Below, one piece after another: positions 4,068 through 19,166 of a DNA stretch of 23,955 nucleotides. The position numbers and the translations under genes were made by a program. This DNA comes from a virus. The notes below the pieces were generated by a model. The model searched no databases and was not told where the DNA came from. It was given only the letters and a program-made list of their open reading frames with translations. The first letter of the stretch is position 1, and each line of letters opens with the position of its first letter. The stretch lies in IMG/VR virus record IMGVR_UViG_3300042887_000120, positions 1-23,955 of that record, one strand, 5' to 3'.

Positions 4068-4511
4068 TTAATTAGGAATACCAATAATTACTAAGTGAAC
4101 GGCTAGTGATAAATCACCAGAAGCACCAAACCGAACAACTCCTTCTACCTTAGAGGTTGTTACTGTTTTTAAGATAACGCTTACGTTTTGTCCAGCAGGA
4201 GTGTTTCCAATGTTTACTGGAGTCGCTGTGACAATTGGTGAATACTTAAAGTCACTAGGAAAGTCGTATGAGAATGTTTTATCAGATGCTGCAGTAACCG
4301 TAGAGTTATTTGCTACCTCTACATACCCGCCAATTATTCTTGTTTCAGAGGTCTTTACACTCTGCTTTCCAGCACTAACAGTATCAATTGTTGCATAGTT
4401 GTATGTTGCTGAAGATACTTCAGTAGATAGTTGGTTTAATGTATCCACTAGTTTGTAAATATAAGGTACATCTAGAGGTTGCCCTCTTTCTGGTAACGGT
4501 ACTTTTGCCAT
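4068..4511 (-). CDS. Virion structural protein, H-type-lectin-like C-terminus
   Basis: A 147-residue protein with AGGAGG seven bases before the ATG. Residues 1-40 (AKVPLPERGQPLDVPYIYKL then a helix) are an extended arm plus helix, likely a trimerisation or docking piece. Residues 60-147 form a beta-sandwich (TFSYDFPSDFKYSPIVTATP, VSVILKTVTTSKVEGVVRFG, SLAVHLVIIGIPN) that resembles H-type lectin domains. It is the last structural gene before the zinc-ribbon and helix-turn-helix genes. It may be a receptor-binding tip or a decoration protein. Sugar binding is not shown by the sequence. Confidence 0.6.
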   Translation of the reverse strand: MAKVPLPERGQPLDVPYIYKLVDTLNQLSTEVSSATYNYATIDTVSAGKQSVKTSETRIIGGYVEVANNSTVTAASDKTFSYDFPSDFKYSPIVTATPVNIGNTPAGQNVSVILKTVTTSKVEGVVRFGASGDLSLAVHLVIIGIPN

Positions 4512-4525
4512 TTATTCCTCCTGTT

Positions 4526-4536
4526 TAATTATACCA
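4526..4536 (-). promoter_or_regulatory. Extended -10 promoter before the 147-residue tail gene
   Basis: The minus strand reads TGGTATAATTA, the same 11 bases as at 23013-23023. It overlaps the stop codon of the fibronectin-like gene and lies 8 bases before AGGAGG. The predicted start (near 4521) leaves an exceptionally short leader beginning about at the Shine-Dalgarno itself. There is no recognisable -35 (CGACTC at 17 bases). It could drive the last structural gene and the regulatory/replication genes beyond it. Confidence 0.5.
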
Positions 4537-4945
4537 AAGACTCTACGCCAGAGTCGAAGATAACTAGTCCTGCATTTACTTTTTTTACAGATGACGCTAT
4601 CTGTATTTTTACATGAACGGATGTGGTACCTGTATTTAAAAATGAATACATGTGAGTTGCGCTAGTTCCATGATATAAGAAAGATCCAGAATCGAACTTG
4701 ACAAATATGTCATATGCTGGCCTATTTAACTCATCTCCCCATACCGCAGTAATAATTGTTTCTGTAATTGATAACGCACCGTTTACGGCTTCAACTGGAA
4801 TTGGATTTGTAATAAAAGTTGGAGACCAGTGAGATGTTCTGTTTTTATCCTCAGAAATGATTCTATATCTTACGACATATCCTGCACTTTCAGAATCAAC
4901 TGGTGGTAAAGATTCTTTTAAAATAATTGCTTTTTTTACAGCCAT
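4529..4945 (-). CDS. Small tail-tip protein, fibronectin-III-like
   Basis: A 138-residue protein starting in a TAATG overlap. YVVRYRIISEDKNRTSHWSP near residue 22 has the look of a fibronectin type III strand pair, followed by TETIITAVWGDELNRPAYDI, FVKFDSGSFLYHGTS and a hydrophobic C-terminal strand. The size equals about one sandwich domain plus a tail. It is probably a fibre or tip component that goes with the 385- and 147-residue proteins. The stop TAA lies inside the extended -10 element of the next gene. No enzymatic motif is visible. Confidence 0.6.
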   Translation of the reverse strand: MAVKKAIILKESLPPVDSESAGYVVRYRIISEDKNRTSHWSPTFITNPIPVEAVNGALSITETIITAVWGDELNRPAYDIFVKFDSGSFLYHGTSATHMYSFLNTGTTSVHVKIQIASSVKKVNAGLVIFDSGVESLV

Positions 4946-6102
4946 TAGGTTACGCCAATTGAAAATCTAAATTCGACATAGTTGCTAGTGTTAGGAGACT
5001 TAACAATTGTTTCGGCAGCATCATTTTTAATAATTGAATATCCAGTTAGTCCATAAAGTGGGTTGACTGTTGCTACGTTTTCTAGTCTTATTGCGTCTAA
5101 CGCTACATAATAATCTTGTGAAGGGTTACCAGCATCAATTACACATGCATAAATTTTGACAACAGTAACTGCATCCCAAGTAAAGTTTGCACTTGTGTAT
5201 AGTTCTTGTAATTGTTTTGAAACTACAAAATATCTATTTGTTTCAAAATCTGCAACAGAGTTTTCTAAATTTCCAGAACTGCCATGATTTATTTCTACTT
5301 CAAACCTTGCAAACTCTCCACTCAAGGTATCGGTTTCTGCAAAGTCTACAAGAATTCTAACTGTTTCTGGAATTGCAGAAGAGTCTCCATTTTTACTTAT
5401 TAAAGAAAATGCTAATCTTAATTCATCAATAGGTGAGTTTCTTGTAAAGTCAACATTTGCTCCAGTTAAGTGAATATGATTTGATCCTTCTTCAACAACA
5501 AAGTGATCAAAGGTTGGACCGCTTTCTGAACTAACAGTTAAATCTGCATCATCACCTTGAATTAAAATAACATTATTTAAAAATCTGCATCTTTCATATC
5601 TGTTTCCACGAGAGGTTTTAAAAAATATAGCATTGTCTGCATTTGTTTGAAAAACTGAATCTGCTACTGCAATAACGTTGTCATCTTCTGGATCATCTAG
5701 TGGTGCGGTAACGGTATTAATTGCAGTTGCTGCAGAAGCCGTATGGTGTTGCCAATTTTCTCCAGTGGTAAAAGCAAAGACTGTTTTGCTATCATAGGCT
5801 CCAGCAGAGGGATTTGATCCTGCAGAGTATAGCCCTACTTCAGATATTTCATATCTTTCTTCTGTTGGTAGTTCTGCGGTTAGAACAATTTTATTTATAC
5901 CGCCCTCACTTACAAACCCTCTAGATGAAATTGGAACACGAAACATTTCAAAATCAAGGTTTTCTTTTGTTGCAAAGTTATCTGCTACATCGCCAGTTTC
6001 TAAAGGGGTAGGACCACAGCCAACAGCCAAAAATGAAGCATAGGCAGGGGCTTGACCAAGCATATACTTACCAATAATAGTCTTACCAGTGTTAGTTATC
6101 AA
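4945..6102 (-). CDS. Tail fibre / receptor-binding protein candidate
   Basis: A 385-residue protein starting at TTG (TTGA overlap with the previous stop; GGAG ten bases upstream). Residues 1-110 (IGKYMLGQAPAYASFLAVGC, YEISEVGLYSAG) resemble the N-terminal attachment domains of phage tail fibres and collar-type proteins. Residues about 150-350 form a beta-rich module (FDHFVVEEGSNHIHLTGANV, FARFEVEINHGSSG, YYVALDAIRLENV) like a jelly-roll carbohydrate-binding domain. The last 35 residues (GLTGYSIIKNDAAE to FRFSIGVT) may assemble the trimer or bind the next protein. Its place after the hub and before two small beta proteins makes it a likely host-recognition protein. The receptor cannot be predicted. 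Confidence 0.6.
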   Translation of the reverse strand: MITNTGKTIIGKYMLGQAPAYASFLAVGCGPTPLETGDVADNFATKENLDFEMFRVPISSRGFVSEGGINKIVLTAELPTEERYEISEVGLYSAGSNPSAGAYDSKTVFAFTTGENWQHHTASAATAINTVTAPLDDPEDDNVIAVADSVFQTNADNAIFFKTSRGNRYERCRFLNNVILIQGDDADLTVSSESGPTFDHFVVEEGSNHIHLTGANVDFTRNSPIDELRLAFSLISKNGDSSAIPETVRILVDFAETDTLSGEFARFEVEINHGSSGNLENSVADFETNRYFVVSKQLQELYTSANFTWDAVTVVKIYACVIDAGNPSQDYYVALDAIRLENVATVNPLYGLTGYSIIKNDAAETIVKSPNTSNYVEFRFSIGVT

Positions 6103-6941
6103 GAGGTTATTTCTCCAAATTCCGCTTCATATATTGTACCACTTGTAGTTATTTCTACTTGAATTTGTTCATCAGGCTCAAGATTAATAGCCTCTACAAT
6201 CATATTTCCTGTATTCTCATCTAGATAAACATATGCTCCATTTGGACCAGTTCCTGGTTCTGGAACTTTGTTTTCAAGTTTAATAGAAAAATTTGCAAAA
6301 TATTTGTCTGAAGTAGACTGAAGACTAAGAATATTGTTTGGGTTATATTGTTGTTGAATTGATGAAAGATTTTTAATAGGTTGATAGGAAACTTGTTGTC
6401 CATTAACAATATCATTACGTGCTATATTTATTAACTCGTGTCCACCAATATTTTCAAATATAATATCAGTCATAACCTCAATTGGAGTAGATTCATCGTC
6501 AAATAAAACCGTGTCTATTGGTGCTGTTTTAACTGGAGGTGGAGGTGGTGCTATAACTGCTGCGGTTATTGTTGCTGGAGTTGCTGGTACTGCTGCTACT
6601 GTTGTTCCGCCACTTGGGCTACCACCATTTGAGGTGCCGCTATCTGTGTTACCACTAGGAACAAAAACTGAAGTTCCTAATGGACTTGTCTGTGATTGTA
6701 TTTGTGTTTGATATGCATTTTCATAAGCATTTAAAGCACTTTGAATTTGTTTTGTTGTTGATCCTGGCTTTGCACTAATTGCTTCTAATGCAGCACCTGC
6801 TGACTGAAAGTTTTGATAAGATTTACTTGTTGTGTCAACTCCTAAAATTTGTTGAGCCTTTTGCACTCCAGTATCTGCTTGAACTGCTGCTAAGGCTTCT
6901 CTAACTGCTTTTTCTTCTTTTGACATTTTAGATTTTGACAT
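6099..6941 (-). CDS. Tail-tip structural protein with low-complexity linker
   Basis: A 280-residue protein whose ribosome binding site GAGGTG lies inside the end of the hub gene. The start region repeats (MSKSKMSKEEK), so the ATG at 6926 is an alternative. Residues 1-90 are helical and Ala/Gln-rich. Residues 90-140 are a Gly/Ser/Thr/Pro/Val linker ending in PPPPP. Residues 145-280 are a beta-rich domain (FDDESTPIEVMTDIIFENIG, YFANFSIKLENKVPEP, EQIQVEITTSGTIYEAEFGE). The build, helix then flexible linker then beta domain, suits an adaptor that hangs a fibre or tip domain on the tail. No family was recognised. The stop is TGA in a TTGA overlap with the next gene. Confidence 0.6.
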   Translation of the reverse strand: MSKSKMSKEEKAVREALAAVQADTGVQKAQQILGVDTTSKSYQNFQSAGAALEAISAKPGSTTKQIQSALNAYENAYQTQIQSQTSPLGTSVFVPSGNTDSGTSNGGSPSGGTTVAAVPATPATITAAVIAPPPPPVKTAPIDTVLFDDESTPIEVMTDIIFENIGGHELINIARNDIVNGQQVSYQPIKNLSSIQQQYNPNNILSLQSTSDKYFANFSIKLENKVPEPGTGPNGAYVYLDENTGNMIVEAINLEPDEQIQVEITTSGTIYEAEFGEITS

Positions 6942-6942
6942 T

Positions 6943-9900
6943 TTACACCTCGCTTAAATAAACAGTCATATTTGGACCACTGTTATTTCTAAAATAATCA
7001 ATATTATATACTACGAAACGACTTGAATCAGATGCAACAAGATCTAGTCCAGAAGAGTCTTTATAATCAACAGTTACAATATCTCCAAGTTGTAATGTTG
7101 GAATTGAAAATAAATTTACACCAATTGATTTTTTAGGATGCATAATTTTATTAATAATCCAACCCATAAGAGCCTGAGCATCATCGTCTGTTTGAATGTA
7201 TATACTATCAATAGAAAATTCATTTTTGCCATATATCATTCTGCTTTGCCTAATTTCGTCATACTTTGCTTTTTCTACAAGCGGTGAAAATACTAAAGAA
7301 CTACCTTGAAATTCTGGATCAGAAAGGTTTCCACGTTTTTTAAAATACTCATCAACAGTTAATTCGTGAGTTGTGTCTTGTGTAAATGTTACTCCCTGAA
7401 TTCTTAAATAATTTCCAGTTGTTTCGTCAAGACTTAAAGCAGTATCTGTAGCATTAAATATCAAAAATTCTGCACCATAAGAGTCTGCTAAAAACCCAGA
7501 AGTTGTGTACCCCTTAATTCTATTAAATGTTGGAGATAGTTGTGCATAAAGAGCAGGGTATGCACGATCATATCTAACATCAAAATAAGCGCATTCACGC
7601 ATAATAGAACCAAATTCTTCAAAATACAAACCATATTCTGGAGGTTGTTGTGCGCTTATTCCAGAAAGATGTGTTGCCTGAACAATTCCACTCATTGCAT
7701 ATTTTCTAAATGATTCATTAGCATTAATTTTACCCTCCGATAATGCAGAGGCTAAGGTTTCTCCAACAGTAAAAACTGTATTTTGAGAATAATTTTCAGA
7801 TAAAGCATATATATTTTCAAACATACATCTTGATGATCCACGAGTAAACAAAGCCATGTTATTATAAATTGGCAACGGATCTGAGTCGTCAACAACTTTA
7901 ACTAACTTATTATTAATATATAAATAAAATCTTCTTATCTTGCCAATATCTTGATACTCTACAGACAAGTCATACACTGTTGGGTTTTCTTCTCCTGCCA
8001 TTCTGTATTGACCAGTAAATCTTCCATCATCAACAAGAATTTTTGAAAGGCCGCCCCAAAGTTTAATAGGTATTGCGTTTGTATTTGACGAATCTTTTTT
8101 AATTTTATAAAATAAAATATTATTGATTGATTTTTCTGCATTTCCTTTTGTATCAAATTTTAAATAGGAGTTAATGTTATCTTCTGTTAAAGCAACTATT
8201 TCGAAATAATATCCATTGTTTGTTTCTGGGTTTAACAATACTGCCAAACCTCCAGACCCACCACCAATGCTAACTGTCTGGTCTGGTTGAATTCCAGAAG
8301 CCTGATAATAAGTTGTGCTGCCAATTGGAGTTTGTGTTCTGCTTGTATTGTTTTCTATTTTGCCAACTATCCTCATTCTAGTACCAAAATGTTTATATGC
8401 GCTGTCAAGGTTTTTATAAACATATGAAACAAAGTTTAATGGGGTTTCTGTAGTTTTAAAAGATGGGCCATTTATTACAAGTGCAGATGATTGAATTGTT
8501 CCAGACTGTGTTGATTTAAGATTATTTACTTGAGTCTCTGTTAAATAATTTGTTGCCATAAAGTTTTTTATAACTCCAGTACGAGTTGTTTGTCTTGCTA
8601 AAACGTTATTAACTCCTGCTGCTCCAGTAGTAGTTGATGGGTAGGTAACGTCTTCATCAAGTGCTGTGGTAAACATAAATTGTGACTGCATATCTACTCC
8701 ACGAACATAATCATTGTTAGCCCAATAATCGTCTATTCCTGCTGTGTGAGATGTTATAGTTGTGCCAAATTGTGCACGGCCATGGTCTACTACCGCTCCA
8801 TTTTGCAGTCTAGTGATTCCATCAACTGTTTCATAATATGGTGTTGCATATATTCTAACTAAACCTGTTGGATATATTTTTCCATTAAATGGCAATGAAG
8901 AAAAATAACTTTGATATTCTTGATTGCTACTAATAAAAACATTTCCAGTACCAGTTATATTAAATTCTACAGCATCATATTTAATGATTTCCCCATTTGA
9001 GTAAAAGTATCCTTGATATCTTGTAAGCCAATAAACATTTTCTCCAAGATCAAATATATTATTTGTCATTGCATGATTTACAACTGTAGGAGCCGAAGAA
9101 GATAAATTAGAGTTTAATGGCATTGCACCTAAAACATAGTTGCTTTGATTTGAAGCAACCTCATTAATTGTTTTTGTATTTTCTGTTCCAGATACTTCCC
9201 ACAACAATGATGGTTTATATATCCAAGTTTTATCTTGATCAATCATGCTTGACTGCTTAATTGATCCGTATGATCTTTGAATATATCTAGTAGTGTAATT
9301 AATTTTTCCATCATTATATATTTTATTGTCTTGAGATGCTATAGATATAATATTAGGCAAGTTTCCAGAACTTGAATTTTCAATAACTCCAGTATCGGTT
9401 TGATTTGTTGATCCAGAAATAACAAAATCTGTACCCCTTTGACTTTCTGTTGGCATTAAATAATCTTTGCTCATAACAATAAAATTGTTGTATTCATCAA
9501 AAAACATTGCAGTTTGAGTAGCAAGTGCTAATTGATTTAATACTTGTGCAACGTTTTGATCTGGTGCTACAAAGAAAAAAGGAATAATTGGGTCAGACTC
9601 TCCGTCAACCCTTCTAAAAACATAATTACTAAAACCTATATAATCAAGCAATGTTGTAATAGCATAACTTAATGATGATTGAGTTGTCAACAATCTTGGT
9701 GCTGGCATAGATTCTAAAAAGAAAAAGAAGTCTCTAAGTTCTATTGATAAGGTTCCAGCAGTAACGTCTGCTTGTGGAAAACCCTCTGAGTATAAAGTTT
9801 TAATTGGAATGTAATAATCAAAACCTTCAACATCAAGAATAATTTCATGAAAGGTAAATTTAATATTTTTTCTAACATAATCTGCAATAATGCTAGTAGA

Positions 9901-11253
9901 GTTTTGATCATTAAATGCTTGGTCGTCATCGAATATTGAAAGTTGGCCATTTGATGCAAGTAATTGACCTACAGGTAAAGATGTAATTCCTATATCAGAA
10001 AGAGTTTTTGTAATTTTAAAATCAATCACTTTATCTGAAATGTCAACTACTAGCCTTGGAGACATTTCAATTAAATCAAAGGTAGAGTCAGATTTGTTCA
10101 TAACATCTACTACAATTCTTATTCCATTAATATATGAAAAATCACGATATGTAACTCCACCCTCTGTATCATTATCAAATGATGCTGGAGATGTTAAGTC
10201 AGTAATAAAGTTTGTATTAACTCCTATGGTCTCAGATCCTAGTTGCCATCCATACTCTGGTGAGAATGTTGCATAATCACCATTGGTCCAAATATGAATT
10301 GTTCCTCTGTCCCCTTCGTTTTCTATTACTAAATACGCATACCCCTCCACGCTAGTTTCTGGAAGCAAGGTATCTGAAGAAAGAGTATCTGCAAACACAA
10401 AAGATGATCGGTATTCTTCAGGGATTATTAATCCATATTCTAATTCAACATAACCATCTGATCCAATAATTGGATCTCCAGATTCACGAGTATCGTTTTC
10501 TCTAAAGGTGTATGCATCAATCCATTGATTGTCTTTAAGGTACTGTATTTTCCATCTAGATGGTGTTGTTTTATTTACGTCACCGTATAATGGATCTGAT
10601 ATTGAGCCAGTTGCAGTTGCAAAAGGTCCTAAGTCTACATCTCCTACATTTGTTTGCATTTTTACTACAAGCCTATTTGCTGGAACCCTTTCTTTATAAA
10701 CAACAAAAGGAACTGCATCATCAATATAATACAAACCATTAGATGGAATACTTGCAATGCCACGCTCAATATTATTTTCTGTTCTATAGGATGTCCAGTA
10801 TCTAAACTGATCATACCTAGATGCCATATAGTATCTTGGCCTTTGTGCCATAGAAGCACCAGAGTTTGCAAAAAATCTATTATTAAAATTTGCTGCTTTG
10901 TTAATGCCAGATCTTGGTCTAAATGGATTTAAACAATCTTCTAAAGAGTAAACTAACTTTAATTTATCTTTTGTTAGTGTAAAACTTTGTGGGGTATCGT
11001 CGTCTTCAAACCCTCCATCAACCACAACATCAGCATCGGTTGCACCAGTATAGTAGTTTCCAGCATCTAAGGAATCAAAATCATTTGGCAAAGTAAAATA
11101 TTGAGATGTATTATCTGTTGGACGATATCTATAGTTTCCTAATTTAAAAATATTATCTGGCATGTTCATATTCCACTCAGCCAGTGTTAGTGACTGAAGT
11201 TTAACAGTTGCAGATGTTTCTAGGTGTGTTTTTAATTCTTCTCCAACAAACAC
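6943..11253 (-). CDS. Tail hub / minor tail protein with LamG-like insert
   Basis: A 1436-residue protein starting at GTG two bases after the previous stop, behind GAAGAGG. Order and content suggest the central tail-tip (Tal/gp27-like) protein. Residues 1-400 are beta-rich with LNPFRPRSGINKA near 130. Residues 410-610 look like hub domains (TLLDYIGFSNYVFRR, then NVAQVLNQLALATQTAMFFD, the typical helix before a catalytic-site-less hub strand). Residues about 950-1155 look like a laminin-G/concanavalin-like sandwich (SGGLAVLLNPETNNGYYFEI, IRRFYLYINNKLVKVVDD). The end (IPTLQLGDIVTVDYKD, FVVYNIDYF, MTVYLSEV) matches hub C-termini. The insert may bind host surface glycans. No peptidoglycan hydrolase motif was seen. 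The domain calls are by eye. Confidence 0.75.
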   Translation of the reverse strand: MFVGEELKTHLETSATVKLQSLTLAEWNMNMPDNIFKLGNYRYRPTDNTSQYFTLPNDFDSLDAGNYYTGATDADVVVDGGFEDDDTPQSFTLTKDKLKLVYSLEDCLNPFRPRSGINKAANFNNRFFANSGASMAQRPRYYMASRYDQFRYWTSYRTENNIERGIASIPSNGLYYIDDAVPFVVYKERVPANRLVVKMQTNVGDVDLGPFATATGSISDPLYGDVNKTTPSRWKIQYLKDNQWIDAYTFRENDTRESGDPIIGSDGYVELEYGLIIPEEYRSSFVFADTLSSDTLLPETSVEGYAYLVIENEGDRGTIHIWTNGDYATFSPEYGWQLGSETIGVNTNFITDLTSPASFDNDTEGGVTYRDFSYINGIRIVVDVMNKSDSTFDLIEMSPRLVVDISDKVIDFKITKTLSDIGITSLPVGQLLASNGQLSIFDDDQAFNDQNSTSIIADYVRKNIKFTFHEIILDVEGFDYYIPIKTLYSEGFPQADVTAGTLSIELRDFFFFLESMPAPRLLTTQSSLSYAITTLLDYIGFSNYVFRRVDGESDPIIPFFFVAPDQNVAQVLNQLALATQTAMFFDEYNNFIVMSKDYLMPTESQRGTDFVISGSTNQTDTGVIENSSSGNLPNIISIASQDNKIYNDGKINYTTRYIQRSYGSIKQSSMIDQDKTWIYKPSLLWEVSGTENTKTINEVASNQSNYVLGAMPLNSNLSSSAPTVVNHAMTNNIFDLGENVYWLTRYQGYFYSNGEIIKYDAVEFNITGTGNVFISSNQEYQSYFSSLPFNGKIYPTGLVRIYATPYYETVDGITRLQNGAVVDHGRAQFGTTITSHTAGIDDYWANNDYVRGVDMQSQFMFTTALDEDVTYPSTTTGAAGVNNVLARQTTRTGVIKNFMATNYLTETQVNNLKSTQSGTIQSSALVINGPSFKTTETPLNFVSYVYKNLDSAYKHFGTRMRIVGKIENNTSRTQTPIGSTTYYQASGIQPDQTVSIGGGSGGLAVLLNPETNNGYYFEIVALTEDNINSYLKFDTKGNAEKSINNILFYKIKKDSSNTNAIPIKLWGGLSKILVDDGRFTGQYRMAGEENPTVYDLSVEYQDIGKIRRFYLYINNKLVKVVDDSDPLPIYNNMALFTRGSSRCMFENIYALSENYSQNTVFTVGETLASALSEGKINANESFRKYAMSGIVQATHLSGISAQQPPEYGLYFEEFGSIMRECAYFDVRYDRAYPALYAQLSPTFNRIKGYTTSGFLADSYGAEFLIFNATDTALSLDETTGNYLRIQGVTFTQDTTHELTVDEYFKKRGNLSDPEFQGSSLVFSPLVEKAKYDEIRQSRMIYGKNEFSIDSIYIQTDDDAQALMGWIINKIMHPKKSIGVNLFSIPTLQLGDIVTVDYKDSSGLDLVASDSSRFVVYNIDYFRNNSGPNMTVYLSEV

Positions 11254-11254
11254 T

Positions 11255-11902
11255 CTAGACCTCTTCCAGTGTTACCGATATGTTCCAAAGATCATGATTA
11301 GTACCACCACGTTTTACGACTGAATAGTTAAAGTCTGAAATATAAACCTGTATTATTTGATTATACTGTGCAAGATGCCCGTATGAAGCATTTGTAATTT
11401 CTCCATCAACAGGAAAATTTGTATATTTGTCATAGGCTAAGTACATCCAGAATGGTCCTTGATGATCTTCATACCATTCAAGTAAGTCTACTCCGCCTGC
11501 TCCACCATCAGATGTAAATTCTCCAGTACCGCCTTTATAAGGAGAAGTTCCTGCAGAGTCAAAAGCAGGATCTTGATAATAAGATCTTGATGGTAAATTA
11601 TTCCAAGATACTGACATATTTAATTTATCTGCAATGTGATATGAACGCATACGACCATTAATTGTTCTTTGGCGTTGCTCAATTCTAACTGGAGTAAATT
11701 GTAATTCTCCACGATTATGATCAGAAAGGATCATAAACTGATCTACAAGGCTAGCAGCGGTGCCCTCTGGCACGGTAGCGCCTATTTCAAACCCTGTTGG
11801 AACATATACACCACTTGTAAGTGTTCCTGCGTTCTCAGACCATAATAGGGCTTGTGGTCTTTGATATCTGCGTCTACCCGTCAAATATGCAGCGGTAGCC
11901 AT
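11255..11902 (-). CDS. Distal tail (Dit-like) protein, putative
   Basis: A 215-residue protein whose ATG overlaps the tape measure stop (TAATG). In siphoviruses the gene after the tape measure encodes the distal tail protein that forms the ring joining tube and tip. The sequence is beta-rich with many aromatic residues, including ELQFTPVRIEQRQRTINGR, KLNMSVSWNNLPSRSYY, GPFWMYLAYDKYTNFPVDG and the ending HDLWNISVTLEEV. The last strands resemble tube-like domains, in keeping with Dit N-domains. Length is close to the shorter Dit proteins. A minor tail structural role is safe; the exact ring position is inferred from order. Confidence 0.6.
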   Translation of the reverse strand: MATAAYLTGRRRYQRPQALLWSENAGTLTSGVYVPTGFEIGATVPEGTAASLVDQFMILSDHNRGELQFTPVRIEQRQRTINGRMRSYHIADKLNMSVSWNNLPSRSYYQDPAFDSAGTSPYKGGTGEFTSDGGAGGVDLLEWYEDHQGPFWMYLAYDKYTNFPVDGEITNASYGHLAQYNQIIQVYISDFNYSVVKRGGTNHDLWNISVTLEEV

Positions 11903-14900
11903 TATCTTTGTCCCCTAATTCTTTGATTATCAATATACTTAATCTGACCAATTACTGCCCTAGCAATATCGTTAGGATTTGCATTTGATTGTGGAACGGT
12001 AATTCCAACATTATAATTATACACCTTACTAGAGTTATCGCTAACAGATGTCATTATTCCACCACTAGAACCTTTTCCATCATATGATGATCCTATCATT
12101 GAAGGATATTTTGATTCATTTAACATAGATAATAGTGGTCCAAATGACTTTGTTGCTTGTTTGTTCATTACAAATTCTCCAGGAGTTAGCATCGCTGGTA
12201 CGGTATCAGAACCCATTCTTCCACCGCTAGCCATATATTTAGGAACTACCCCTCCCATGTTCATCTTTTTAATTTTTCCACCGTACATTTGGAATTGCAT
12301 TGCTCCTCTAGGGCTTCCGCTACCACCACCACGACCACCAGTACTACCACCACTAGCAATTATTTTATTGCTTGTTAGAGTAGCCTCAACCTCAGCAGAT
12401 TTTTTTGCAATACTTGTTAAAAGTTTGTCCATACCGCTTAACTTTTCATTTGATAAATCAAGTGCAGCATTATAAAGACTTACTTTTCCTTCAGCAATTA
12501 CCCATTGTTCTTGAGTTTTTCCAAGAACTGTTTGATTTTTAATTAAAAGTATTGTTTCATTTTTATAATCATCAAGTGATTTTTGTTGTGTAATTAATGT
12601 GTCGTTTTTAATTTTGTAAATGCTTTCTTCGGTCGCATAATTTTTATCTTGAAGAACAACTATTTGATCCTGTAAGGTTTTTCTTTGTTGTTCAAGTGAA
12701 AAAACTTGTTGACCAATTGCATATGTACGGGCTTCAATTTGATCCTTTGTCATTCCTCCAGCAGTGATTCCAGTAAGGGCTTGTTGACGAGATACTTCAA
12801 GTGCTTTTGTCTGTTGATCTATTCTAGATGCTGCAGCCTGTGCTCTAGCATCCTGCACTGCCGCTGCAGCGGCTGCTATATCTCCAGATGTTAAAGCATC
12901 AGCAATAGTTAATCTTGATTTTTCTTGACCTGCAATTTCTTGATTAATAGATGATATTTTTTCAAGTGATTCAATTTGCTTATCATATTGACTATTAATT
13001 GCATCTTCTTGTTTACGAATAACATCAAGATTATTGCTTAATATTGTTGATTCATCTTGTAATTTTTGGATTGGTCTGTCATATTCAAGGTCAATCCTGC
13101 GGTTTAATAAATCAATAGAACGCTGGTTGGTGTCAATTAATTTTTGTTCAGCATCAATTTGTTTTTGTGTTGCATCTATTGATGCTTGTAATGCATCTTC
13201 TTCTAGTTGTCTTTCTTGTTTAATTAATGCTTCTTTTGCATTAAAGTAATTTTGAATAATTGAAAGTTGTCTGTTTGCTTTTTGTCCTTCTGTTTCTACA
13301 GTAACATTTGTGTCAATAGGGCTTGCTACAATTTTATTTAATTCTTCTTGAAGTTTTTTTCTATCTCTTACACTTTTTCTATAAGATGCTTCTTGTAGCC
13401 CAGCACTTATTTGTAAAGCAGTATCGTTTGGATTTAATCTTGCTTGCTCCATTATTGTTATTAAATTTTGTGTTTCTGTTGAACCTATTCCTAGCATTAT
13501 TCCTTCTAAAAACATTAATTTACTGCTTAACTTTTCAACCTCCACTGCAGCCAATGCAGTTGCTGTTCCAATATTTTTAAGAATTGCATTTACCAACATA
13601 TCTGAACCTTGTTTAAATTTTGGATCACTAATTTTTTTAAAAACTGTATCGACTGCTTTTGAATATTGTTCTGCATTAATAACACCATTTTTAAACTGTA
13701 AAGCAATACCAGATAATATAGTATTAATAGACATAGCAGCAGTGTTTAAATTTTTACCAGAAAACTGTTCAAATAATTCTGTAATATTAATTCCATAATC
13801 TTTCATTTTTTCTGGACTTGCTAAATTAGGTAATTTAAAAAATTTATCAAAATCATTTGCAAATTGATCGGTTACTTGTTTTACAACAACATCTAAATTT
13901 TCTATTCCTTGTTCGGTACCAATATTAAGGGCTTTAAAATCTAACTTTAGATCTTGTCTTTCAGCACTTTCTCTTAATGCAATTAATATGCTTTTTATAG
14001 TTTTATCATCATAGTCTCCAGCAAATTTAATTGCTAAAGATGAAAATATTAAATCTGCTTGCTGTTGTGATGCAGATTTAATTTGACTTATTGTATTTTG
14101 AAAATCTTTATAACTATCGGCTCCTGCATCTTTAAAAAGTTCTTTAAATTGATCAATTTGAATTCTTTCAGTATTTTCTCTTTGACTTCCGCCAGTTGGT
14201 GTTAAATTTTCTTGTGTTAGTGGATCTTTACTTGGCTCTCTACCAACAATTTTACCTATATCTTTTAATTGATCTGCAGATAAACTTGCCGCTCTTCCAA
14301 GACCTTCGATTTTCATTCTTGTTTTTTCTTGTGAATCTTTATATAATTTATTAATTGCGTATAGTCCTGTAAGTCCAGCAATTACTAATCCGACAGGTCC
14401 AGTTGCAAGAAGTTTAAGTTTTTTTAGTAATCCAATAATGTTAGACCCACCAAATAATTGAAGAATTGTAGATAAAGCAAAAAGTGGTCCAGTTATTCTA
14501 AACAAAAGTTCAGAAAATTTTCCTAATCCACCATTTGCCATTGATGTAACTCCTGCTAAGGAAGAAACTGCAAAAGATGCACCCATAATTTTGCTATTAA
14601 GACCAACAAACCTTTGATTTGATGTTTGTAAAATTTTTGCTTGTTCTTTAATTTTAGTATTAATTTGAGGACTCATTGGAGTATTTGCTGCTACCGCTCC
14701 AAACGTAGTTGATGGTTGTTGTCCTGGTTGACTTGGTGAACTAAATGGAATATTTCTAGCACCACCTTGAACTCCACCTGTTGCAGCCTTACCTAATTGA
14801 GATCCTATTAGAGCAACATTGTCCTTTCTATTTTGCATTCCAACCTCAAGACCACGAGCAATGTCCTCACCAATTGGAATAGTTTTACGAGAAGGAGATT

Positions 14901-17900
14901 GTGTTCCTGCTGCTCTAGCAGTTTCTAACACAACCTGATTTGTTACTGCACGTGCAGCCTCAGTAATTGGAGTAAATGATTGTTGACCTCTAAACTTGGC
15001 TTGTGCTAGACTTTGCTCCGCCGCCAACTTTTGTTGTGCACTTCTTGTGCCAACGCCAGGCTGTTGTGCGGGATTGTCTATTAAGAATTGTGTAGCAGCA
15101 ACCGCACCTGCAGCCTGTGGACCAAAACCAGGTGCAACTTTTGCCATTGACCCTGTAGAACTTAGCATACGTTCAAGAACTTGTTTTTGTACTCTTAATT
15201 CTTGCTCTGTTAATGCAATATTGTTAGTAATTTTTTCCATAATAGATGCAACAATTGTTTCATCAGCGTTTATTTCTGAAAGATTTTTAAAATATTCATC
15301 ACGAGTTGACATAGATGATTGTAAAATATTACTTACTTGATTTAATGTTGATGACTGTGCAACCCATGCGTTAGGATTCCAAGCCTCCATAAACATTTTA
15401 TCAACATTACTTCTAACTGTAATTACATGCGCTCTGTGAACATCTCCAGCCTGTTTAACTACACTTGAAAATTCTGCAGCATTTTTGCCTTGTGATTGAT
15501 AATATTCAGTCATTGCTCTTTGTGCAGCATTAGAAGATCCTCTTGCTCTTGTTAGTTCTTCCTCTAATACAGCAGATCCAGCAACTTGCTCTTCCATGGT
15601 TCCAACACCAGTTTGACCAGCATTAAAACGTCTTTCTCCTCTTCCAGCATCTTGAAATACTGATCCTGGTATTTGCTTACCAGTAATTGATTTTGTTACT
15701 AAATCTAGTTCTCTAACAAATTGATCAATGGTAATTTTAGTGTCACTAGCCATTCGTGCTAAGGTTTCTTCAACAACTTCTAGTGCATTTTCAATGCCTG
15801 CTCCATTAGCAAGCATTGCGCTAATAAGTCTTTGCGCTTTTAAAGCAGTATCTTGTCTAGCAAAATCTAAAGTACTTACACGTCCCCCAACACTTACTTC
15901 TCCAGACATATATCCAGGAATATTTCCTGCAACCATTCCTTGAATTAATCCAGCATATTTTTTTGTCATATCTGCTGGAATAACTGATTCTCCTGGGGAT
16001 AGCATTGCTGGAACTATGTCTCCTGCACCCTTTGGTCCTGGGACTGAAACAATGCCATTTGCTAACTTTCTAACTGCTCCTCTTGGTGGCATCATCATTC
16101 CAGGATTATTAAACATGAATGATTGACCTGCTCTAGCAGCACCTTGATATGCAGCAATTAATTGTTGAAGTGCTGCTGTTTCGGCAGTAAAACTTTGTGT
16201 TAGTTTTGCATGTGATTGATCTAATGAATGTGCAGCAGCAGCCGCTTCAAGTTGTTCTGTATTTAAATATTGTGTTTGTTCTCCAAGAATTTGTGATTGA
16301 CCAGTTAATCTTAAATATCCCTGACGTAAAAGCATTACGCCCTTAAGTCCATTTGCAATTGCGTTAGCAACTAAACCAAAAGTCATTAAAAATATTGGAC
16401 CAATAGCGCCTATTCCTACAGTTAAAAATGTTATAAGTTTTTTAGTTCCATCTGAAAGATTGCCAAATTTTTCTAACACTCCACTAACAAACTCTATAAT
16501 TGGTGTTGCTGCTTCTAAGAATGCTTGACCAACTGGTATAAGTGCAAATTTAAGATCTTCAACACTCTTTTTAAATTTATTCATTGCAGAATCTGCAGTC
16601 ATTCCTAATTCTTGTTCAGATAAAGCAGATAACTCTTCTACTGATGAATTCGCTAAATCAAGTACACGAGCAGCCTGATTTCCATCTTTTGCAACGTTAG
16701 CAAATAATGTTGACAAACGAGCAAATTGGAATTTGCCAAACATTTGTTCAATTGCTCTTGCTCTAGCAAGTGGGTCTAAATTATTTAAAGCAGTAGCAAA
16801 TTCAACAACTGTTGATTTTAAATCACCTTTGTTTTTTTCTACAATTGCTGTTGCATTAATACCAAACCCAGCAAGCATTTCTGATGCTTTTTTAGTTGGA
16901 TTAATTAATGCTGCAAGACCAGACTTAAGTGCGTTAGCACCTTCTGATGCATTAATTCCGCCTTCTTTCATTGCCGCAATAAAGAATGTTAAATCTTTTA
17001 CATCGCCACCTAATTGTTGAATAACGGGGGCTACTTTTGGAATAGCAGTAGTAATATCATCAAGAGATACAACAGTTTGGTTTTCTACTGCGTTTAAAAA
17101 GTTAATTGAGTCTGCAAGTTTGTCAGATGACATTCCAAATGCATTTTGTAAAGAGATAGTTGTTTCAAGTGCTTTTTGGCTATCAATCTGACCAAGAACA
17201 GAAAGACGTGTTGCTTCTGTGGTTTGACGTTGTAAGTCTAAACCTTGAAAACCTGCTGCTGCGGCCTCTGCTGCTAAACCAACTGTTTGAGAAACTGAAA
17301 TTCCATATTTGGTAAATTGTCTTCCAAGTTCTGTTATATTATTTAATGCTTCTTGGGTTTCAGCCTTTGGTGTAAATAAATCTCCGTAAACTTTTCTAAA
17401 CTTAAGGGCCTGGGCTTCCATATCCATAAAGGTTTTTGTGGCGGTAGATCCAACAATAGTTAGTGGTATTGTAAAACCAACCATCAACTGACGTCCAGCC
17501 CATTGTGTATTTTTACCAAAGTTTAAAAGATTGGTAGTGCCTTGCTTCATTAATTGATTAAATAGTGCTTGTTTCTGCGCTGCTATGGCTGTTCTTGTGC
17601 CATAGTCTTGCATGTTAAGGCTGGTAGGTCTAATAGCAATTGCTTCCATTGCCCCACTAGCATTACGACCCATTTTAATATATTGGGTTTGTAGTGTTTT
17701 TACACGTTCTTGTGCTACCTTGCCAATTGTGTCAAACTCTGATTTAAATAATCTACCAAAAGTTTTTGTAGATGCACCAGCATAGCGGAAGTATTCCCGC
17801 ATTGAAAACTTGTTTTTTTCTAAAGAGTTAGTAAAAGATTCTGCACTTGTTTTTACAGTTCTAAGTTCTGCAGAAAAAGCACCAATAGAGTTAATACTAC

Positions 17901-18063
17901 CAATTAGGTTTTTCTGCAGAGACCTTTGAGCAAGTGCTGCTGATTCGCTAGACCTAGCGATAGAAGAGTGAAACTGAGATATCTGTCTCTGTAAAGCCTT
18001 TAGTTGTGCTAACGCTGCAGACGTATCTATACTTACGCCAATATTAGCATTAACATCAGCCAT
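11902..18063 (-). CDS. Tape measure protein (TP901-type core)
   Basis: A 2053-residue protein, the largest in the window, that sets tail length and sits inside the tube. In order: an N-terminal coiled-coil segment (1-150); a TP901-like core (about 200-490, with FMDMEAQALKFRKVYGDLF, LAAEAAAAGFQ and NFLNAVENQTVVSLDDITTA); a hydrophobic stretch near 540-570; a first VPAMLSPGESV module near 690; Ala/Gln-rich helices; hydrophobic segments at 1180-1240 (GPVGLVIAGLTGLYAI) that may insert into the host membrane; a long heptad-rich coiled coil at about 1600-1720; a Gly-rich linker; and a second VPAMLTPGEFV module near 1960. No peptidase or lysozyme motif was recognised. The start has GAAGGTG upstream; the stop shares TAATG with the next gene. 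At about 0.15 nm per residue the tail would be near 300 nm. Confidence 0.93.
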   Translation of the reverse strand: MADVNANIGVSIDTSAALAQLKALQRQISQFHSSIARSSESAALAQRSLQKNLIGSINSIGAFSAELRTVKTSAESFTNSLEKNKFSMREYFRYAGASTKTFGRLFKSEFDTIGKVAQERVKTLQTQYIKMGRNASGAMEAIAIRPTSLNMQDYGTRTAIAAQKQALFNQLMKQGTTNLLNFGKNTQWAGRQLMVGFTIPLTIVGSTATKTFMDMEAQALKFRKVYGDLFTPKAETQEALNNITELGRQFTKYGISVSQTVGLAAEAAAAGFQGLDLQRQTTEATRLSVLGQIDSQKALETTISLQNAFGMSSDKLADSINFLNAVENQTVVSLDDITTAIPKVAPVIQQLGGDVKDLTFFIAAMKEGGINASEGANALKSGLAALINPTKKASEMLAGFGINATAIVEKNKGDLKSTVVEFATALNNLDPLARARAIEQMFGKFQFARLSTLFANVAKDGNQAARVLDLANSSVEELSALSEQELGMTADSAMNKFKKSVEDLKFALIPVGQAFLEAATPIIEFVSGVLEKFGNLSDGTKKLITFLTVGIGAIGPIFLMTFGLVANAIANGLKGVMLLRQGYLRLTGQSQILGEQTQYLNTEQLEAAAAAHSLDQSHAKLTQSFTAETAALQQLIAAYQGAARAGQSFMFNNPGMMMPPRGAVRKLANGIVSVPGPKGAGDIVPAMLSPGESVIPADMTKKYAGLIQGMVAGNIPGYMSGEVSVGGRVSTLDFARQDTALKAQRLISAMLANGAGIENALEVVEETLARMASDTKITIDQFVRELDLVTKSITGKQIPGSVFQDAGRGERRFNAGQTGVGTMEEQVAGSAVLEEELTRARGSSNAAQRAMTEYYQSQGKNAAEFSSVVKQAGDVHRAHVITVRSNVDKMFMEAWNPNAWVAQSSTLNQVSNILQSSMSTRDEYFKNLSEINADETIVASIMEKITNNIALTEQELRVQKQVLERMLSSTGSMAKVAPGFGPQAAGAVAATQFLIDNPAQQPGVGTRSAQQKLAAEQSLAQAKFRGQQSFTPITEAARAVTNQVVLETARAAGTQSPSRKTIPIGEDIARGLEVGMQNRKDNVALIGSQLGKAATGGVQGGARNIPFSSPSQPGQQPSTTFGAVAANTPMSPQINTKIKEQAKILQTSNQRFVGLNSKIMGASFAVSSLAGVTSMANGGLGKFSELLFRITGPLFALSTILQLFGGSNIIGLLKKLKLLATGPVGLVIAGLTGLYAINKLYKDSQEKTRMKIEGLGRAASLSADQLKDIGKIVGREPSKDPLTQENLTPTGGSQRENTERIQIDQFKELFKDAGADSYKDFQNTISQIKSASQQQADLIFSSLAIKFAGDYDDKTIKSILIALRESAERQDLKLDFKALNIGTEQGIENLDVVVKQVTDQFANDFDKFFKLPNLASPEKMKDYGINITELFEQFSGKNLNTAAMSINTILSGIALQFKNGVINAEQYSKAVDTVFKKISDPKFKQGSDMLVNAILKNIGTATALAAVEVEKLSSKLMFLEGIMLGIGSTETQNLITIMEQARLNPNDTALQISAGLQEASYRKSVRDRKKLQEELNKIVASPIDTNVTVETEGQKANRQLSIIQNYFNAKEALIKQERQLEEDALQASIDATQKQIDAEQKLIDTNQRSIDLLNRRIDLEYDRPIQKLQDESTILSNNLDVIRKQEDAINSQYDKQIESLEKISSINQEIAGQEKSRLTIADALTSGDIAAAAAAVQDARAQAAASRIDQQTKALEVSRQQALTGITAGGMTKDQIEARTYAIGQQVFSLEQQRKTLQDQIVVLQDKNYATEESIYKIKNDTLITQQKSLDDYKNETILLIKNQTVLGKTQEQWVIAEGKVSLYNAALDLSNEKLSGMDKLLTSIAKKSAEVEATLTSNKIIASGGSTGGRGGGSGSPRGAMQFQMYGGKIKKMNMGGVVPKYMASGGRMGSDTVPAMLTPGEFVMNKQATKSFGPLLSMLNESKYPSMIGSSYDGKGSSGGIMTSVSDNSSKVYNYNVGITVPQSNANPNDIARAVIGQIKYIDNQRIRGQR

Positions 18064-18088: not shown

Positions 18089-18412
18089 TTATTCCTGTGA
18101 ACTAAGAATGTCTGTAACAGATGACAAATTAATGCCAGATGCTGCTTCAACAATTTTATACACAGTTGGAAGATCAAGAAGATCTTCTAATTTTTGAATG
18201 TCTCCAGCCAATTCTGGCTTGTATTGCTCCATAGCAATCTGTACACATTCAACTAGCAGAGTCATTGATTTCTCATTGTCTTCTGCAACCTTAGCCACCC
18301 CTTCAAACTTCTTCATAAACGGACGAAGAAGAGAGATTTTTAACGGGCGAACTGTTATTTTTGTTCCATCGATAAGGGTGACTTGGTCAGCCTCATGCAC
18401 GGTTGTCGCCAT
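18089..18412 (-). CDS. Tail assembly chaperone, short form (G type)
   Basis: A 107-residue protein related along its whole length to the N-terminal domain of the preceding gene: MATT start, IDGTKITVRPLKI, TLLVECVQIAMEQY, LDLPTVYKIVEAASG. It lacks the T domain. It has one of the best ribosome binding sites in the window (AGGAGG, six bases before ATG) and its own extended -10 promoter. By analogy with lambda gpG and equivalents, several copies would coat the tape measure while the long form recruits tube subunits. No slippery site is seen near its end, and no T-like frame follows it, so frameshift production of a long form from this gene is unlikely. Confidence 0.75.
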   Translation of the reverse strand: MATTVHEADQVTLIDGTKITVRPLKISLLRPFMKKFEGVAKVAEDNEKSMTLLVECVQIAMEQYKPELAGDIQKLEDLLDLPTVYKIVEAASGINLSSVTDILSSQE

Positions 18413-18433: not shown

Positions 18434-18464
18434 CAATTATAGCATAGGAAGGCTATTTTGTTAG
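18434..18464 (-). promoter_or_regulatory. Extended -10 promoter for the short tail chaperone
   Basis: The minus strand has TGCTATAATTG, a perfect extended -10 (18436-18444), with CTAACA, a 4-of-6 match to TTGACA, at a 17-base spacing (18459-18464, overlapping the end of the long chaperone gene). The predicted transcript would start near 18429-18431, just before AGGAGG and the ATG at 18412. It would allow the short chaperone, and the tape measure behind it, to be transcribed apart from the long form. Confidence 0.65.
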
Positions 18465-19166
18465 GTCTTCGTAATCCAACCCCATGCCAATACCAAACCC
18501 TACTTTTTGAGCATTTGGTCCTTGTAAAGATAAAACATCGTTTGAATCTTTTGTTTGACCACCACTAAAGACTCTAGCCTTCATGTCTTCCCATTCTTTT
18601 TGACCACGCTGCTTATCTGACTGCCCGTCTAAATCCACACCTTGAATTGCTGCTAAAAACTTTTTTTCAGTATAGTCTAACTCTCTGCTTACTTCAAGGG
18701 TTGCTATCAATTCTGGCATTGAAAGAGATTTTTCTAGTTCTTGATAATCTTTCCAAATACCTAATAAAAATACTTCAGACTCTAATTTTGCAAGATCTAA
18801 GGTTTCCCAGGTTTGACCACTATCAAGTGCCTGATCTTTAACTGGCTCTTGTGATTTTTTGTTAATGCGAATTCCAGCAGAAGTATCTAAAACCTTATAA
18901 ACTGTTGGCATATCTATATTGTCTTCAATTTGCTCTACCGTGCCTGATATTTTAGGATAGTATTGTTTCATACAAATTCTAACGCACTCTACTAAAACTG
19001 CTATAGCCTCATCATCATTTTTTGTATTTTTAATATTTTCAAAAACATCCATAAATTCACGCAAATATTTAATCTTTAATGGGACTATCTCTAATTCAGT
19101 GCCGTCAAATAAATGTATAATTTGACTATTATATATTGTAGTTGCCATAGAATTCCATTTTACCAT
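18453..19166 (-). CDS. Tail assembly chaperone, long form (G-T type, single frame)
   Basis: A 237-residue protein. Residues 7-105 are clearly related to the next gene (shared MATT start, PLKI, LVECV, MPTVYK; about 40% identical by eye with one gap). Residues 115-237 are an extra domain containing SLSMPELIATLEVSRELDYT and QKEWEDMKARVFSGGQ, matching the T part of tail chaperones. Such proteins bind the tape measure during tail assembly. Normally the long form arises by ribosomal frameshifting from the short gene, but here it is one continuous frame and precedes the short gene. The start ATG at 19166 has only AAAGG upstream; the ATG at 19148 aligns with the paralogue's start and may be the true one. 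A terminator lies just upstream. An A6 run sits at the domain junction (18855-18860). Confidence 0.75.
   Translation of the reverse strand: MVKWNSMATTIYNSQIIHLFDGTELEIVPLKIKYLREFMDVFENIKNTKNDDEAIAVLVECVRICMKQYYPKISGTVEQIEDNIDMPTVYKVLDTSAGIRINKKSQEPVKDQALDSGQTWETLDLAKLESEVFLLGIWKDYQELEKSLSMPELIATLEVSRELDYTEKKFLAAIQGVDLDGQSDKQRGQKEWEDMKARVFSGGQTKDSNDVLSLQGPNAQKVGFGIGMGLDYEDLTK
18855..18860 (-). other. A6 tract at chaperone domain junction (possible slippage site)
   Basis: The minus strand reads AAC AAA AAA TCA in frame at the boundary between the N-terminal chaperone domain and the T domain. A -1 shift here reads five further codons (ATC ACA AGA GCC AGT) and stops at TAA (18838-18840). It would yield a protein of 109 residues from the first ATG or 103 from the second, against 107 for the paralogue. 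It is not a canonical X XXY YYZ heptamer. Activity is speculative. Confidence 0.3.

Follow-up and report, generated by a model that had tools for sequence, protein, structure and literature searches.

The protein encoded at positions 6943..11253 (minus strand) of a 23,955-base stretch of viral DNA, called the window below and comprising the entire virus record IMGVR_UViG_3300042887_000120, is probably a tailed-phage hub of the Tal/gp27 type related to the hubs of actinobacteriophages. Its core (residues about 400–620 and 1209–1436) would enclose a CBM66/laminin-G (LamG)-like beta sandwich at residues 918–1152, together with a further region at residues 621–838; the hub would act as a trimer whose sandwiches hold sugar. 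The predicted folds, their order along the protein and their conservation were computed here.

The sandwich domain and the hub core

Residues 905–1180 were modelled in isolation with AlphaFold2, using an input alignment of 71 sequences. The model is an all-beta sandwich with a mean predicted local distance difference test score (pLDDT) of 78.9 and a predicted template-modelling score (pTM) of 0.79, and 112 of its 276 residues have a pLDDT of at least 90. Foldseek placed the GH16-type glucanase VvEG16 first among solved structures (E 4.9e-5), its lower matches including thrombospondin and the carbohydrate-binding module (CBM) of the evolved distal tail protein (Dit) of phage J-1 (6.5e-4). VIA-align 2, run as a second comparison over the list from Foldseek, ranked the levanase CBM66 4b1m first (Z 17.1, root-mean-square deviation (rmsd) 2.2 Å, 146/161 residues aligned); the top three rows were all CBM66 (Z 16.8–17.1), which assigns the predicted structure to the CBM66 fold. 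Galactocerebrosidase (Z 15.4, rmsd 3.5, 156 aligned), thrombospondin (Z 13.5, rmsd 3.3, 162 aligned), galectin-8 (Z 12.8, rmsd 2.4, 136 aligned) and the C-terminal receptor-binding domain of mycobacteriophage TM4 gp23 (Z 12.1, rmsd 3.5, 159 aligned) were also matched. Both comparisons thus returned members of the concanavalin A-like lectin/LamG fold, in VIA-align with Z up to 17.1. A preliminary description of this DNA had recognised such a fold by eye at residues 950–1155. The modelling confirms a concanavalin/LamG-type beta sandwich there, but with borders nearer residues 918–1152 (7798..8502, minus strand), the earlier N-terminal limit lying about 30 residues too late.

This fold could hardly have been read from sequence families. 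Pfam returned no family for the 1436-residue protein at E up to 1, a sequence search of the PDB gave no match, and the only match in PHROGs was to phrog_10359, a minor tail protein (E 3.9e-58). The Laminin_G_3 profile (PF13385) matched nothing in the window record, and no family was hit by the window domain even with E values as high as 1. Across the alignment, Laminin_G_3 matched 2 of the 71 domains (best E 0.0014), so that the domain is not assigned to that family by sequence, and 3keto-disac_hyd (PF06439) matched 8 of 71 (best 1.6e-6). Because Pfam and Laminin_G_3 are blind to the domain, the call by eye was not a trivial one. A tblastn search with residues 931–1165 alone against 50,697 phage records likewise had no hit with an E value of 1 or less. 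However, a profile built only from the second open reading frames (ORFs) of split relatives and from Streptomyces-phage hubs, both described below, found residues 903–1151 of the window protein with an i-Evalue of 1.9e-8. A single-sequence search is blind to this domain, whereas a profile search detects it.

A larger AlphaFold2 model, of residues 330–1436 (98 sequences; pLDDT 79.7, pTM 0.66), places the sandwich within a hub. It matched the hub of phage Milano (Z 21.6, rmsd 3.8, 306/326 residues), Mu gp44 (Z 19.2, rmsd 3.7, 293 residues), T4 gp27 (Z 16.9, rmsd 3.6, 297 residues) and the 80alpha hub (Z 16.3, rmsd 4.2, 297 residues), so residues 330–1436 are predicted to contain a hub fold of the gp27/VgrG/Mu gp44 type. 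All four matches run from model positions 67–72 to 1106–1107, approximately residues 400 to 1436, and hence across the sandwich. The matched residues number about 300 within a stretch of some 1037, so the core must be assembled from segments far apart in the sequence, between which the sandwich lies. That region was independently matched by CBM66 (Z 16.1, rmsd 2.3, 159 aligned, model 509 to 823–826) and by gp20 of phage Douge (Z 13.8, rmsd 3.0, 170 aligned, model 511–825). The proposal of hub-like domains on both sides of the sandwich therefore holds in the predicted structure, with residues 621–838 also lying between the two halves. In cryo-electron microscopy of Douge the hub core also consists of two segments, 42–147 and 487–560 (PMC13033339); an interrupted core thus appears normal, and it is the filling of the gap that differs.

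VIA-align lists only the end points of its matches, so the core limits, which we read from secondary structure, confidence and conservation, are approximate. The N-terminal part (residues 1–399, 10057..11253; all hub segments on the minus strand) falls mostly outside the large model, and Pfam found no family in residues 1–370. The putative N-terminal half of the gp27-like core (residues 400–620, 9394..10056) begins near most of the hub matches, which start at model 65–74, that is, residues 394–403, and it aligns with the hubs of Streptomyces phages at an hhalign E of 8.7e-25. It is followed by the other region between the halves (residues 621–838, 8740..9393), near the end of which, at a point equivalent to about residue 840, the first gene of split relatives stops. 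Residues 839–917 (8503..8739) directly precede the sandwich and may add one strand to it, the CBM66 match in the large model starting at model 509, or residue 838. A low-confidence, variable linker (residues 1157–1206, 7636..7785; 2% invariant columns) then leads to the putative C-terminal half of the core (residues 1209–1436, 6946..7629), which includes the stretch PTLQLGDIVTVDY and aligns with the Streptomyces hubs at an hhalign E of 4e-19.

Conservation and spread of the sandwich

At least 80 close loci were found, with 68–92% identity in their best segment; the comparisons below use the best 80, and further ones exist. The median identity to the window was 81.2% for the sandwich (residues 906–1155, 80/80 loci), against 78.3% (371–640) and 80.9% (1207–1436) for the hub core and 68.3% for residues 1–370. 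It was lower still in the next gene, 6099–6941 (65.3%, 79 of 80 loci with a match), and in the gene at 4529–4945 (57.3%, 65/80 loci, contig ends limiting coverage), although the gene at 4068–4511 runs contrary to this trend (79.6%, 64/80 loci). Mean column entropy over the 80 aligned sequences was 0.59 bits in the sandwich and 0.62 and 0.59 bits in the two parts of the core (permutation p 0.83); within the sandwich, loops reached 0.72 bits and strands 0.46 bits. The sandwich is thus as conserved as the hub core. It is therefore no recognition element under rapid change, and its conservation speaks against a role in host range.

More distant relatives carry the domain as well. A tblastn search of phage records yielded 130 relatives (127 of Streptomyces, 3 of Rhodococcus), all below 60% identity. 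Ten of these were compared: nine Streptomyces-phage hubs of 1062–1067 residues and the 1785-residue hub of Rhodococcus phage Dorin. By hhalign, the window clade aligned with the Streptomyces hubs from residues 4–1397 to 5–1028 (975 columns, E 2.4e-50), the window domain being gapped by 28 and 25 residues in this full alignment. With a mixed alignment, 78 more loci were recovered, among them a distinct second freshwater lineage, in which the split hubs occur. Sandwich slices of the three groups matched each other in hhalign: window clade and Streptomyces hubs at E 1.8e-6, over 42 columns only; window clade and split second ORFs at 8e-9 over 124 columns; and Streptomyces hubs and split second ORFs at 1.2e-9 over 134 columns. 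The best of 20 column-shuffled controls was 0.053.

A sandwich profile seeded with the 9 Streptomyces hubs and at most 14 second ORFs of split loci matched 876 ORFs at E up to 1e-3, among loci that include repeats of the same contigs. It found the sandwich in 141 of 144 close-lineage ORFs, 69 of the 70 ORFs of a diverse set (up to 14 of them seed sequences) and 9 of the 10 named records (all 9 in the seed). At that cut-off the profile missed L043, L045, L171, L148 and the Dorin hub (L089). The preliminary description had called the domain an insert. A recent insertion is rejected, since the Streptomyces hubs align across the region and the slices of three lineages match where shuffled controls do not; a lineage-specific addition is not supported either, the domain being common to three deep lineages and varying no more than the core does. 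As judged from these alignments, the domain belongs to nearly all relatives compared as a fixed trait of the family that evolves slowly, which is newly described here.

Two of the hubs missed by the profile are enlarged elsewhere. A 1962-residue hub (L148:6864-7979) has about 370 extra residues at the site equivalent to residue 771, with no Pfam match. The Dorin hub (L089:4540-9894) has a CBM_5_12 domain near the N-terminal part (E 4.5e-6) and C-terminal putative immunoglobulin (Ig) domains (E 1.1e-26), which, by these profile matches, are further decoration of the same hub.

Split hubs and neighbouring genes

In 16 of the 56 loci L113–L168 the hub is encoded by two ORFs (for example L133:4785-8517 and L126:4920-8602), two of them, L156 and L157, apparently being duplicates of a single locus. 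The first ORF is matched as far as the counterpart of residue 837–844 in 15 of the 16 and of residue 764 in L144. Both the sandwich and the C-terminal core are encoded by the second ORF, where an FN3-like domain precedes them in several loci: of 15 members scanned, 3 matched PF00041 (best 7.1e-9), and FN3 matches in the PDB reached 6.8e-6, no single stretch passing the limit. In all 16 loci the second ORF has a start codon and a 1–31 base overlap, and stops of all three kinds occur; the 14 second ORFs that were aligned differ widely, with 30–82% identity to the first of this set. Given these start codons, overlaps, stop kinds, divergent second ORFs and extra FN3-like domains, sequencing errors are an unlikely source of the 16 splits.

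On a hub-core tree of 86 rows, 14 of them split, the split forms were found only in the second freshwater lineage, where they make up 14 of 29 rows. The split state requires at least two changes by well-supported branches and four on the best tree. The split point thus marks a natural border between modules, immediately ahead of the sandwich. Judged from their gene sequences, some relatives encode the hub core in two genes that part at the edge of the lectin domain, an arrangement newly described here.

The window hub gene has a GTG start and is preceded by a tape measure gene (11902..18063, minus strand; PF10145 E 4.7e-28, phrog_10030) and by a gene for a 215-residue protein (11255..11902, minus strand; phrog_1194, unknown function, E 3.1e-8). 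The last of these occupies the usual place of Dit and, by position only, would be that protein. This order of tape measure, small gene and the 6943–11253 protein is the position expected for a tail hub and is also found in Stanwilliamsviridae. Two adjacent genes before the tape measure, 18089–18412 and 18453–19166, are a duplicated pair (42% identity over 97 residues) and, by position, probably tail assembly chaperones. The tail protein at 4945–6102 appears by eye to have another beta-rich, jelly-roll-type domain in its second half, with no Pfam match. The named relatives suggest a host among the Actinobacteria.

Possible function and relation to known hubs

Glycan binding by the sandwich, which the preliminary description had raised, is plausible by analogy with its fold relatives CBM66 and the C-terminal domain of Douge gp20. 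The CFP-NTD, CFP-tip-CTD and BppU domains of Douge, the second being the construct of this gp20 domain, are reported to have bound M. smegmatis and its glycans (PMC13033339), and host-glycan binding by domains of this fold in mycobacteriophage tips is also reported elsewhere (PMC13252515). As a trimer, the hub would have three sandwiches hanging from the tip. They might hold an envelope sugar that many hosts have in common. Once tail proteins of a more variable kind had made the initial contact, the sandwiches would then keep the closed hub near the surface and could possibly help to pull it open. Several observations weigh against this view: the other four of the five AlphaFold2 models of the isolated sandwich averaged only 67–68 pLDDT, its Foldseek TM-scores were low (0.28–0.41 of the query in the first rows), and the sequence-level tie to CBM66 was weak (E 0.45–0.46, below significance). 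Moreover, conservation equal to that of the hub core fits a structural role equally well, and galectin domains of the Dit type show that such folds can also be structural.

The chief competitor, to which we attach a smaller but appreciable likelihood, is indeed that the sandwich serves for structure or docking, holding neighbouring tail proteins such as a fibre, Dit or an adaptor instead of sugars. Its conservation and its presence in nearly all relatives compared would suit this role, and the galectin domain of Douge Dit takes part in hub contact (PMC13033339); yet in fold it most resembles carbohydrate-binding modules and phage domains that bind glycans, and the low-confidence, fast-changing linker C-terminal of the sandwich suggests a mobile domain. 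That the sandwich is a rapidly diversifying determinant of host range appears improbable. Its loops do vary more than its strands, and CBMs of other tail tips contribute to host binding (PMC7291167), but the identity and entropy comparisons disfavour a fast-evolving domain, the sandwich exceeding both parts of the core and two nearby genes in median identity. Least credible is a continuous hub fold without any separate sandwich. This would accord with the lack of a Pfam domain in the window protein, but it is refuted at the level of predicted structure, where hub matches take up only some of their span and CBM66-type folds match the region between. A more speculative extension, which we regard as rather unlikely, is that the hub of this large family of freshwater and actinobacterial phages is a two-part machine: one part would make most of the ring, and the other would bring a lectin with the closing half, in some lineages as its own polypeptide with an FN3-like domain at the start. 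With a lectin built into the gate, the hub could then couple sugar binding to tail opening without a separate receptor-binding fibre step.

Among known systems, the sugar-holding hub that we favour comes closest to the evolved Tal hubs with inserted carbohydrate-binding modules. Like those of siphophages of lactic acid bacteria (PMC7291167), it has in its predicted structure a carbohydrate-binding-type module within the gp27-like domain; in SW13 and TP-778L the insertion in this domain is reported to carry lysin domains (PMC9437275). The present module differs in being CBM66/LamG-like, slowly evolving and found in nearly all relatives compared; named members of the family infect Streptomyces and Rhodococcus, and some relatives have a two-gene hub split at the module. 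The tail-tip glycan-binding domains of Douge and Claus (BppU domain II and the C-terminal domain of the central fibre) share actinobacterial hosts and the fold: residues 699–878 of Douge gp20 are the part matched at Z 13.8, and a resemblance to 4B1M is described for Claus BppU domain II (PMC13252515). However, those domains lie on accessory proteins or the central fibre and their glycan binding was measured, whereas the sandwich here lies in the hub and its fold is predicted. The Stanwilliamsviridae minor tail proteins, such as that of Streptomyces phage Mildred21 (SEA_MILDRED21_59, 1065 residues; phrog_10359), share homology over residues 4–1397, gene order and the sandwich, but are about 370 residues shorter and annotated only as minor tail proteins in the records compared. 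Stenotrophomonas phage AXL3 gp21 also has a LamG superfamily domain in a central tail hub; its description sets it apart, the domain being C-terminal (874–1024 of 1036) and the hub assigned to Phage-tail_3 (PMC7504290). A literature search of one library, mostly at the level of titles, found no paper on the hub structure of the present phage family.

Taken together, a hub with a defined lectin-like module would replace what was so far an unannotated minor tail protein. The phage family in question is common in freshwater, and the 130 phage records with relatives come from Streptomyces and Rhodococcus. The split hubs mark the border of the lectin-like module, which could be expressed alone and assayed for binding. 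If the sandwich does bind sugar, its conservation argues for a common component of the host envelope rather than a strain-specific one.

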